The notes below the pieces were generated by a model. It did not search any database. It was not told the DNA's origin and saw nothing but the letters and a program-made list of their open reading frames with translations. From Bacteroidota bacterium (GTDB lineage: Bacteria; Bacteroidota; Ignavibacteria; Ignavibacteriales; Ignavibacteriaceae), in the NCBI GenBank assembly GCA_021815365.1, contig JAKAGZ010000001.1, positions 62,001 to 126,000 of the forward strand: a stretch of 64,000 nt of DNA, in the 5' to 3' direction. Position 1 is the stretch's first letter; the number at the start of each line of letters is the position of its first letter. A program made the position numbers and the translations under genes. Positions 13,844-55,446 of the stretch are shown piece by piece.

Positions 13844-15658
13844 TTATTTATTCCGGGAAGAATTTTCTCCATATAAAATCTTAAAATCCTTTTCTTTCCC
13901 TTTTTCCCACCAATCGGCGGGGATAACTTTCCAGTTGCCGAAAGTTTTTGGTGTGACGTGTTTGTGTTTCTCAATCCACTTCATTAAATAATAGCGCAGG
14001 TCTTTTTCTGTTGAAGTGATCACTCTTTCTGCCAATTTGTTTTGCGGGATGCCGGCGCCTTTTGTAAGCAGTCCGCCCCCTCCATTGCCCTGGTATGAAT
14101 TAATTGCAACTCTGTATTTTTTGGTAAGGTCGAAAGGTTTACCATTCACCATAGAGATAATATTTATTCTTTGTCCTGCCGGCTTAGAGACATCAGCAGT
14201 ATAATTTATTCCCGCTGCCGATGAAAAGTTATAATATTGTCCTTTAAGCTGAGGGCGTCCGCCATCAAGAACTAAGTTCCCTTTGTCGTCCTTTTTGAAA
14301 TTCAACAGATGATCATTTTCATCTTTCATCTGGTTGAACCACAAGCCATAGGAATATTCAAGATAGTTTTTAATTTCCTGCCCTGTTAGTTTCATTGTGT
14401 AAAGAAGATTTTCATATTTATATAAACTGAACATATCTCTCACACGAACAGGTCCTCTTTTAATTTCAGCGTTAAATGAAAGAGGTGCCGCAAAAGAAAC
14501 ATCGGCTTTCGTAATTTCGAGCTGGACTTTCTGGATAAGGTCTATGAAGGGAGAATCGCCGAACATTGATTCTTTTGTGGAAACAGGTTCGTTGAAAAAA
14601 CCGATTACCTTAGAAACATAACTATAAACCTCCTCAACTTCTCTTGTGAATTTTTTTACGTAAGGGACATTTTCTTTATAATTTTTTGATTCAATTATTT
14701 CGCCTGTAATTTCTTTTTTCCATTTTCCGGTCGAATTATCTTTTGTCAGTGTAACATTTGCAACAGCCGCAGTTCTTGCAGCGTTTATTGTTCCGAGGAT
14801 ATGAACAAGTTTTCCTTCTGAATTTTTAACAGTATAGTTCCACCCATGGTGGTCGTGCCCGACGAAAACTATATCGAATCCGGGGACTTTCTCAGCAACA
14901 AGCTGGGAGGCATTTTCATTTTTGGGTGCATTCGGATCTGCACCGCCATAATCAGCCTCCACACCAGAATGAAACAAACCAATCATTAAATCCGGTTTTT
15001 CTTTTTTCTGAATTATCGGGACCCATTTTTTTGCAGTTTCAATCATATCTTTAAATTCAATCCCCCTCCATATTTTTTTCGGCAGCCAGTTTGGAATTGC
15101 GGGTGTTATCATTCCAAGCACAGCTATTTTTATTCCGTCCCGGTTTATAATTGTGTAGGGCTTGAAATATGGTTTCCCGGTTTTTACATCTACCGCATTA
15201 GCCGCAAGCCAAGGGAAATTAAACTCTTTCCTTATCTTATCATAAACAGCGTGACCCGGTTCAATATCGTGGTTGCCGACTGTTGCTGCATCATATTTCA
15301 TGTAATTCATTACCTGCGCAACGATGTGATGTACATTGGTTTTTCCTGCCTGACCGGCAGGCAGGTCAAAGTTATAATAATAAACAATCGGCTGCCCCTG
15401 CAGAATATCTCCATCGTCAAGCAGCACTACGCTTTGATCTTTCTTCTCTCTTTCCTGCACGATATAATTATAAATCTGTGCAAGCGAAGAATTACCAAGC
15501 TCGCCCTTTATAAAATCGTATTGAAATAGTGAACCGTGTACATCGCTTGTTTCAATAAACTTTAGTTTTACTGTCTGTGCAAATATTGTAAAGGTAAGAA
15601 TAAAGAAGGTTAGCAGTATTTTTGAAAAGCTGTTCTTTTTATTTATGGTGTTGTTCAT
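13844..15658 (-). CDS. Secreted 5'-nucleotidase / 2',3'-cyclic phosphodiesterase family protein
   Basis: A 604-residue bimetal phosphohydrolase of the UshA/CpdB type. It has a signal peptide (hydrophobic core ILLTFFILTFTIFAQ) and metallophosphatase motifs: ETSDVHGS, DDGDILQG, TVGNHDIEPGH and FVGHDHHGWN. The C-terminal nucleotide-binding domain follows, with the family words LYKYENLLYTMKLTGQEIKNYLEYS and NSYQGNGGGGL. It probably acts in the periplasm on extracellular nucleotides. A 21-base palindrome is inserted in frame near residue 100, adding LPAGQAG just before TNVHHIVAQVMNYMKYDA. CpdB or UshA specificity cannot be decided by eye. Confidence 0.88.
   Translation of the reverse strand: MNNTINKKNSFSKILLTFFILTFTIFAQTVKLKFIETSDVHGSLFQYDFIKGELGNSSLAQIYNYIVQEREKKDQSVVLLDDGDILQGQPIVYYYNFDLPAGQAGKTNVHHIVAQVMNYMKYDAATVGNHDIEPGHAVYDKIRKEFNFPWLAANAVDVKTGKPYFKPYTIINRDGIKIAVLGMITPAIPNWLPKKIWRGIEFKDMIETAKKWVPIIQKKEKPDLMIGLFHSGVEADYGGADPNAPKNENASQLVAEKVPGFDIVFVGHDHHGWNYTVKNSEGKLVHILGTINAARTAAVANVTLTKDNSTGKWKKEITGEIIESKNYKENVPYVKKFTREVEEVYSYVSKVIGFFNEPVSTKESMFGDSPFIDLIQKVQLEITKADVSFAAPLSFNAEIKRGPVRVRDMFSLYKYENLLYTMKLTGQEIKNYLEYSYGLWFNQMKDENDHLLNFKKDDKGNLVLDGGRPQLKGQYYNFSSAAGINYTADVSKPAGQRINIISMVNGKPFDLTKKYRVAINSYQGNGGGGLLTKGAGIPQNKLAERVITSTEKDLRYYLMKWIEKHKHVTPKTFGNWKVIPADWWEKGKEKDFKILYGENSSRNK
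15345..15365. repeat. In-frame 21-bp palindrome inside the nucleotidase gene
   Basis: CCTGCCTG, spacer ACCGG, then CAGGCAGG: a perfect 8-bp inverted repeat. It adds seven residues without breaking the frame. A related form with one mismatch lies at 58785-58804 in a gene-free region, so this is a dispersed short palindrome that has inserted into a coding sequence. Confidence 0.8.
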
Positions 15659-36557: not shown

Positions 36558-36595
36558 TTGAAAGGCTGATAAAATTAGTATATTTTATCAGCCTG
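36558..36595. repeat. Hairpin direct repeat, copy 1 (after the second pilin)
   Basis: A 38-base sequence holding a perfect 13-bp inverted repeat, AGGCTGATAAAAT / ATTTTATCAGCCT, with a 6-base loop. An identical 38-base copy lies at 37273-37310. The two flank the nucleotidyltransferase remnant, the intact antitoxin and the dead toxin. It may end pilin transcription, though no clear T run follows. Confidence 0.85.
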
Positions 36596-37272: not shown

Positions 37273-37310
37273 TTGAAAGGCTGATAAAATTAGTATATTT
37301 TATCAGCCTG
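37273..37310. repeat. Hairpin direct repeat, copy 2 (after the toxin remnant)
   Basis: Identical to 36558-36595 over 38 bases, including the 13-bp stem and the loop TAGTAT. The 3' side here is followed by TTTCAATTTT. The copies are 715 bases apart, a layout that suggests duplication or insertion of the toxin-antitoxin segment by recombination at the hairpin. Confidence 0.85.
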
Positions 37311-54847: not shown

Positions 54848-54957
54848 ATAAAAGTAATGTTACCTGAATTTTGCTCAACTGTTAAGCTGCCATAGTGACA
54901 GAAATGTTTGGAATAAAAATCCTGAATATTTATATTTACCACTCAAAATTTTTTTCA

Positions 54958-55029
54958 GGGCGCGTAGCTCAGGGGTAGAGCATCTGCCTTTTAAGCAGAG
55001 GGTCGGTGGTTCGAAGCCACCCGCGCTCA
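54958..55029 (+). tRNA. tRNA-Lys (anticodon UUU)
   Basis: A complete 72-base cloverleaf: acceptor GGGCGCG with CGCGCTC, D-arm GCTC/GAGC, anticodon arm TCTGC / GCAGA with loop CTTTTAA (anticodon TTT), T-arm GGTGG / CCACC with loop TTCGAAG, discriminator A. CCA is not encoded. The GIY-YIG gene begins eight bases after it. Confidence 0.93.
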
Positions 55030-55036
55030 CAAAACC

Positions 55037-55300
55037 GTGAAAACATTTTTTGTTTATATTCTTAGGTCTACTAAGTACAGTCATCATTATATTGGTCATA
55101 CTTCCAACCTTCCAGATCGAATTAAACGACATAATTCAAACCGGAGTAGCTTCACAAAAGGGAAAGGACCCTGGAAAATAGTCATATCATCACTATGCAG
55201 AACGAAATCAGAAACATACCGGTTAGAGCTGTATTTAAAAAGTCTTAAGAACATAAATTACGCAATAGATTATTTGACAAAGCGAAACTCAGCCGTGTAG
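55037..55300 (+). CDS. GIY-YIG domain endonuclease-like protein beside tRNA-Lys
   Basis: An 87-residue single-domain protein from GTG 55037: FVYILRSTKYSHHYIGHTSN with the GIY-YIG-type VYI and YIG words, the Arg in LPDRIKRHNS, and a Glu in TYRLELYLKSLK. Such small proteins are related to the UvrC nuclease domain; their function is unsettled. The gene lies between tRNA-Lys and a broken tRNA, and its last residues (RNSAV, stop TAG) are encoded by the broken tRNA's first half. This layout suggests a tRNA-associated mobile gene. Confidence 0.85.
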   Translation: MKTFFVYILRSTKYSHHYIGHTSNLPDRIKRHNSNRSSFTKGKGPWKIVISSLCRTKSETYRLELYLKSLKNINYAIDYLTKRNSAV

Positions 55301-55375
55301 AGCACCCCGACTTATAAGTCGGGAGGGTCGGTGGTTCCTCCAAAGGAGTCCATTCGGAGAAGCCACCCGCGCTCA
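55281..55375 (+). pseudogene. Broken tRNA with a 21-bp insert in the T-loop
   Basis: The D-arm region (CTCAGCCGTGTAGAGC), a hairpin CCCGACTTATAAGTCGGG where the anticodon arm should be, and the 3' part of tRNA-Lys (AGGGTCGGTGGTTC and AGCCACCCGCGCTCACAAAA) are recognisable. The acceptor 5' strand does not pair with the 3' strand, the anticodon arm has no 7-base loop, and 21 extra bases split the T-loop. It cannot be a working tRNA. The 3' end matches tRNA-Lys exactly up to the same AAAA after it. Confidence 0.75.
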
Positions 55376-55390
55376 CAAAAGTTTCAGGAT

Positions 55391-55406
55391 TGACCACTTC
55401 GTGGTT
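55391..55406. repeat. Palindromic word ACCAC-TTC-GTGGT
   Basis: A 5-bp hairpin with a 3-base loop, the second copy of a word also found in reverse within the histidine kinase gene (53253-53267). It stands 15 bases before a terminator hairpin. Confidence 0.55.
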
Positions 55407-55419
55407 AGTTAATTTTTCA

Positions 55420-55446
55420 TTCCCGCTTTCTGCGGGATTTTTATTT
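55420..55446 (+). terminator. Rho-independent terminator after the tRNA/GIY-YIG unit
   Basis: TCCCGC, loop TTTCT, GCGGGA followed by TTTTTATTT. It would end transcription that began at tRNA-Lys and passed through the GIY-YIG gene and the broken tRNA. The remaining gap to 55710 (AT-rich) shows no gene. Confidence 0.8.

Follow-up and report, generated by a model that had tools for sequence, protein, structure and literature searches.

How does a small nuclease gene come to lie between a working tRNA gene and a damaged duplicate of the same gene, and does such an arrangement recur elsewhere? The question is raised by a locus in the window analysed here, a 64,000-nucleotide stretch of a bacterial genome of 3.09 Mb in 110 contigs, where a GIY-YIG gene stands directly behind a tRNA-Lys gene (Table 1). 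A first-pass annotation, made from the sequence alone, had proposed that a tRNA-targeting, homing-like element inserted here and left the 3′-end of the tRNA duplicated like an attachment site.

Table 1. Features of the tRNA-Lys locus, in window coordinates.
Feature	Position	Strand	Basis
Promoter-like site (predicted function), 5′ of tRNA-Lys	54908–54936	+	Consensus scan, 9/12 matches
Intact tRNA-Lys(ttt)	54958–55029 (end 55029/30)	+	ARAGORN; Rfam RF00005, 68 bits
First copy of the 22-bp tRNA-Lys 3′-end, including AAAA	55013–55034	+	Sequence alignment
GIY-YIG nuclease gene, 87 codons, catalytic domain only	55037–55300	+	ORF; Pfam PF01541, E 4.5e-16
Partial re-armed tRNA-Lys copy, D-arm to 3′-end, without the 5′ acceptor strand	about 55288–55380	+	Alignment to the intact tRNA
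Palindrome CCCGACTTATAAGTCGGG replacing the anticodon arm of the second tRNA-Lys copy	55306–55323	+	Alignment
21-bp hairpin-forming T-loop insert in the second tRNA-Lys copy	55338–55358	+	Alignment; fold
Second copy of the 22-bp tRNA-Lys 3′-end, including AAAA	55359–55380	+	Sequence alignment
Two terminator-like hairpins 3′ of the remnant	55388–55410 and 55421–55437	+	Consensus scan

The anatomy of the locus agrees with what that annotation had described, namely a GIY-YIG gene right after tRNA-Lys that ends within a second, broken tRNA, the two tRNA copies having identical 3′-ends. The reading frame opens with GTG at 55037, 7 bases after 55029, and its stop codon (TAG, 55298–55300) falls inside the second tRNA-like stretch, which ARAGORN does not call as a tRNA; the shared 3′-end measures 22 bases with the AAAA. 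Around the locus, ARAGORN and Rfam call a single tRNA, tRNA-Lys(ttt). The terminator-like hairpins after the remnant suggest that tRNA, GIY-YIG gene and remnant may form one transcription unit, in which case the nuclease gene would be read from the tRNA promoter. A group I intron is ruled out, as the Rfam search of the window returned no intron family and the GIY-YIG ORF sits between the tRNA and the remnant, outside any intron. An 85-codon ORF on the minus strand (54875–55132) runs antisense across tRNA-Lys and is probably spurious.

The encoded protein of 87 amino acids is a bare catalytic domain, with PF01541 covering residues 4–72, and its Pfam domain and catalytic Tyr, Tyr, Arg and Glu place it in the GIY-YIG superfamily. 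Among 59 aligned sequences, Y7 is conserved in 57, and Y18, G20, R28, H32, E64 and K68 are conserved in all; Y7, Y18, R28 and E64 we take to be the catalytic residues. The genes are under purifying selection, with a pN/pS of 0.11 between copies within ten arrays, one of which (L054) is of the canonical GIY-YIG type. A separate DNA-binding region, usual in free-standing homing endonucleases and not strictly defining of them, is absent from the protein. By sequence search, the closest solved structures are those of UPF0213 (1zg2, E 5.7e-17; 1ywl, E 1.6e-13) and SLX1 (E 1.4e-8). UPF0213 is a protein of unknown role and SLX1 a eukaryotic DNA-junction nuclease, and the available portions of their descriptions mention no link to tRNA. 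No NCBIfam model scored above its cut-off for the window protein, and matches to homing-endonuclease families in PHROGs were weak (best for the window protein, 1.3e-4).

The layout is found at five loci of the window's own genome: at this tRNA-Lys, at two tRNA-Met genes, at tRNA-Pro and at tRNA-Ser, the last being a tandem arrangement with a 422-bp unit. The PF01541 search of this genome returned ten stretches, two of them in long ORFs (577 and 631 aa), and one small GIY-YIG gene (C14) has no adjoining tRNA. All 41 related genomes contain PF01541 matches. Among the matches listed, 119 loci gave 113 clusters after four duplicates and two long ORFs had been set aside; an intact tRNA lies within 500 bp of the GIY-YIG gene in 62 of the 113, and in all 62 the nearest one is on the same strand. 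A partial copy of the same isotype is present besides the intact tRNA in 51 of these listed clusters, a fragment without an intact tRNA in four, and neither in 47, most of which belong to two other, canonical GIY-YIG clades; the fragment at L091 is on the opposite strand and is probably a chance match. Where the order of the parts could be classified (61 cases), the intact tRNA comes first and a 3′ partial copy follows in 50, and the mirror form, with a 5′ part first and the intact tRNA last, accounts for 11. Among the matches listed, the single-contig genomes G001 and G018 have as many as five units in tandem.

Beyond these relatives, a profile of the tRNA-associated type matched 75 of 118 genomes of the phylum. 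Thirty loci were drawn from this sample and, less five already in the earlier set, 25 were examined: at 22 of them a tRNA lies no more than 500 bp away, in each case on the same strand, and outside the window's order the figure is 20 of 22 loci, from ten families. When 84,980 species genomes were searched with the Lys/Met/Val-type alignment, by protein pattern only, 80 loci emerged, a set that overlaps the 113 clusters (L220/L021 and L222/L059, for instance, look like the same contigs). A tRNA lies within 500 bp at 61 of the 80, the nearest again always on the same strand, and the loci come from Bacteroidota, Ignavibacteriota, Chlorobiota, Balneolota, Patescibacteria and several further groups. 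The suggestion of a tRNA-associated family, with small GIY-YIG genes ending at tRNAs more than once, is thereby supported: such genes, accompanied by a partial duplicate of the adjoining tRNA, turn up at further loci of the window's genome and in dozens of others. This recurrence across loci and genomes rules out a chance pair of tRNA-like sequences, and an assembly artefact is ruled out by the arrays in single-contig genomes and by loci in named isolates. An origin from a phage or plasmid was rejected, as tblastn gave no match in the phage collection (at 1e-5) or the plasmid collection, though the layout was present in one of three viral contigs, with the nearest tRNA on the same strand. That contig, filed as viral (L301), shows tRNA-Lys, GIY-YIG gene and re-armed copy at 240–960.

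Comparison of orthologous sites indicates that the element is a variable occupant of its tRNA genes. A tRNA-Lys match was obtained in 41 of 41 relatives, and 30 of their loci were compared, the presence of the tRNA being taken from the DNA match and the locus sequences. A GIY-YIG gene stands beside tRNA-Lys at seven of the 30; at 16 the upstream response-regulator gene is kept and the GIY-YIG gene is absent, and ten of these 16 keep the downstream gene too. Those ten loci, with both flanking genes in place, support an insertion at the locus. The relatives' site is uninterrupted, as the first-pass annotation had anticipated, and it holds a single tRNA rather than the anticipated pair; the same tRNA pair around an unrelated spacer was not encountered in the relatives. 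In one genus, the tRNA-Pro locus was matched in 81 genomes, of which 30 loci were compared. Four have GIY-YIG genes, one of them as a four-copy array, and five of the 26 empty loci retain a spare tRNA 3′-end downstream as a relic. In another genus, a GIY-YIG gene lies behind tRNA-Val in G040 and is absent in G033, with identical tRNA-Val genes. The flanks are too diverged for the insertion ends to be placed to the base. Polymorphism of presence and absence at one orthologous site, a test for a free-standing homing endonuclease, was thus observed, but an old element lost many times over could leave such a pattern too.

In a tree of 110 GIY-YIG proteins from among the matches listed, with three short ones left out, the proteins group by tRNA isotype and not by genome. 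The labelled rows require 14 changes of tRNA isotype and 53 of genome label; with all groups taken together, 23 changes are needed against a mean of 59.5 after shuffling, and none of 200 shuffles was as low. Asp-, fMet- and Gly-type proteins fall into one group per isotype. The Lys, Met and Val types are mixed within one clade, so that isotype loyalty is not absolute. Searching these genomes with tRNA-Lys also brought up other tRNA-like loci, at roughly 75–84% identity, which suggests that isotype switches may run between similar tRNA genes. As an internal control, the two canonical GIY-YIG clades from the same genomes include no protein with a tRNA label (0 of 36). Twelve unlabelled proteins fall outside the canonical clades: three genes lie directly behind a tmRNA on the same strand (L058, L118 and L067), four lie about 500 bases or less from the end of a contig (L014, L029, L055 and L064), one of the Leu type (L045) is about 1.6 kb from a tRNA, and four (L040, L046, L109 and L119) have no RNA-gene neighbour at the Rfam gathering level. 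Two of the three tmRNA-linked genes make up a clade of their own. The Asp-type proteins of two families pair with a support of 100/98; a tree constrained to keep those of the first family in one group is worse by 13 log units (p-AU 0.042). This test speaks weakly against vertical descent because the group was chosen after the tree had been seen.

The partial copies are distinguished by their palindromes. Of 49 remnants, 39 contain a perfect GC-rich stem with at least six pairs, whereas the share among 980 control windows taken at the same loci is 2.9%; the position of the stem is isotype-specific. In the Lys remnants, which come from six genomes and one viral contig, the palindrome lies between TAGAGCA and GGGTC, and positions 1, 2 and 7 of the stem vary on both sides (two rows of the alignment, the native-like tRNA variant L149 and L339, are not remnants). 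The Asp remnants carry five different palindromes at one junction. A stem that varies on both sides between genera makes the palindrome look like an inherited part of the element, and the aligned remnants fit such an origin; the same picture would result if palindromes had inserted time and again at a favoured site, because any palindrome pairs. One palindrome, TCCCGA..TCGGGA, is also dispersed, with 20, 32, 14, 53 and 9 copies per genome against 0–2 for the reversed control. In G007, a tRNA is no farther than 500 bp from 34 of the 50 copies among the matches listed, where 0.42 would be expected; in G001, among the matches listed, the array copies are the only ones near a tRNA and most are far off.

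Several palindrome-bearing stretches have no nuclease gene. In G007, tandem partial tRNA copies with palindromes and without a GIY-YIG gene stand beside Lys, Ser, Thr and fMet tRNAs (L165–L168 and L171). Two loci, L170 in G007 and L175 in G001, have the 5S rRNA 3′-end in partial copies with TCCCGA..TCGGGA and a repeated downstream stretch, and no GIY-YIG gene is nearby. The occurrence of such copies without a nuclease gene, and beside 5S rRNA, suggests that this part may arise by another route. Six canonical GIY-YIG genes (L003, L026, L060 and L072–L074) are flanked by palindromes of the ATTCCCGC..GCGGGAAT type, which presumably resemble a Neisseria repeat.

With moderate confidence, we read the locus as the tRNA-Lys representative of a family of selfish nuclease elements, widespread and 0.3–0.45 kb long, that are free-standing, reside at tRNA genes and would work like intronless homing genes. 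Each element would comprise one gene for a bare GIY-YIG domain, co-oriented with the adjoining tRNA (rarely tmRNA), and a partial copy of the RNA gene in which an arm has been exchanged for a palindrome. The nuclease would most likely recognise its own tRNA gene and cut or nick the element-free allele, and recombination with the element-bearing copy would then install the element, the partial tRNA copy serving to maintain one working tRNA at the site. Through recombination between the repeats, tandem arrays may then form, or the nuclease gene may be lost, leaving relics without it. As a guess, the palindrome would break the homology and slow deletion, or would remove the nuclease site from the spare copy. 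The chief problem for this reading is the intact tRNA that stays beside the nuclease gene, a host copy that the cut would have to spare. It is tentatively possible that the re-armed copy is itself a working part of the element, with each nuclease lineage recognising one tRNA gene through hairpin-forming DNA or RNA and the copy acting as a guide, a decoy or a protected anchor.

Other readings of the layout put the weight on the palindrome or on a service to the cell. An Ssn-like nuclease might recognise the palindrome, which together with its tRNA context would be a mobile or regulated unit. The dispersal of TCCCGA..TCGGGA and its enrichment near tRNAs in G007, the ATTCCCGC..GCGGGAAT flanks of several canonical genes and the variation of stems on both sides at one junction would suit such a system; we nevertheless judge it unlikely, given that most of the G001 copies among the matches listed are far from tRNAs, that the palindrome differs between loci of one genome and that the nuclease lineages follow tRNA isotype. 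Isotype-loyal clades under purifying selection, and a structure-specific fold nearest to UPF0213 and SLX1, would also fit a resident, non-mobile nuclease that serves the cell, for instance in cruciform repair at tRNA genes, and is inherited vertically and often lost, the partial copies being products of tandem duplication and decay. Yet most tRNA genes have no element, only some sites are occupied even among members of a single genus (4 of 30), copy numbers range up to five in tandem among the matches listed, the Asp-type grouping crosses families, and decay predicts no palindrome at one fixed position, all of which makes a resident nuclease quite unlikely.

A protein that cuts the tRNA itself, as a toxin at the RNA level, with the re-armed copy as RNA decoy or antitoxin, would account for isotype loyalty and for the exchanged anticodon arm of the Lys copies. 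It appears very improbable, since the host tRNA is intact beside the gene, matches in the defence library are weak, and the partial copies have no 5′ acceptor strand and in some cases no anticodon region. Integrative elements at the ends of tRNA and tmRNA genes leave a working tRNA and a duplicated part, and islands of this kind typically show the tRNA 3′-end in duplicate. This is where the attachment-site reading of the first-pass annotation holds in part: the 3′-end is duplicated, but not as a simple attachment-site repeat, as the copy is missing the 5′ acceptor strand, carries a palindrome where an arm would be and may lie on either side of the gene, and the ORF list contains no integrase between the flanking genes. 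Unlike those elements, the present ones also measure less than 0.5 kb. With the layout found at many isotypes in many genomes, and in a mirror form with 5′ parts too, a relic of an integrase-type island, or chance, is scarcely credible.

For selfish homing-like elements, the closest described case is SegB of phages T4 and T6, a free-standing GIY-YIG homing endonuclease in a tRNA region; in the portions of the reports that concern it, SegB is often beside tRNAs and is linked to the tandem amplification of tRNA and nuclease gene by recombination (PMC13096335; PMC2988022), and no isotype preference is mentioned there (PMC13096335). The elements described here share with SegB a free-standing GIY-YIG gene adjoining tRNA genes and tandem amplification. 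Compared with SegB by description, they differ in that the window protein has 87 amino acids, is encoded on a bacterial chromosome rather than by a phage and belongs to isotype-loyal lineages, and in that partial tRNA copies with palindromes are present. The Ssn proteins of Neisseria and others are site-specific, single-stranded-DNA GIY-YIG nucleases, small and single-domain and tied to hairpin-forming repeats. The window protein resembles them in size and domain content, and some GIY-YIG genes found here have palindromes of a similar kind on their flanks. The Ssn target is a dispersed repeat and not a tRNA gene, and we know of no isotype-bound Ssn lineages. An element in the mitochondrial atp6 gene of Allomyces reportedly carries both a nuclease gene and a substitute for the gene end, so that the host gene still functions; it differs from the element in the window in that it is said to be a single case, in a mitochondrial protein gene.

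The literature searched held no description of such elements in bacterial chromosomes, and they look like an undescribed family of selfish elements across many bacterial groups. If this is correct, tRNA genes in Bacteroidota, Ignavibacteriota, Patescibacteria and other groups would have as neighbours a family of mobile elements that are the smallest to bear a nuclease, many single-domain GIY-YIG genes still without a name would gain a function, and arrays of broken tRNA genes would be explained. They would also provide a natural set of isotype-specific minimal nucleases whose target choice is directly testable, and would bear on how selfish genes occupy essential genes without killing the host. 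Should the re-armed copy be a working part, they would represent a new class of mobile or guardian element at tRNA and tmRNA genes across bacterial phyla.

Hairpins are also found elsewhere in the window. Two identical 32-base hairpins, AGGCTGATAAAATTAGTATATTTTATCAGCCT, lie 715 bases apart at 36563–36594 and 37278–37309, and the hairpin CCTGCCTGACCGGCAGGCAGG at 15345–15365 resembles the hairpin insert of the tRNA-Pro remnant at L005.
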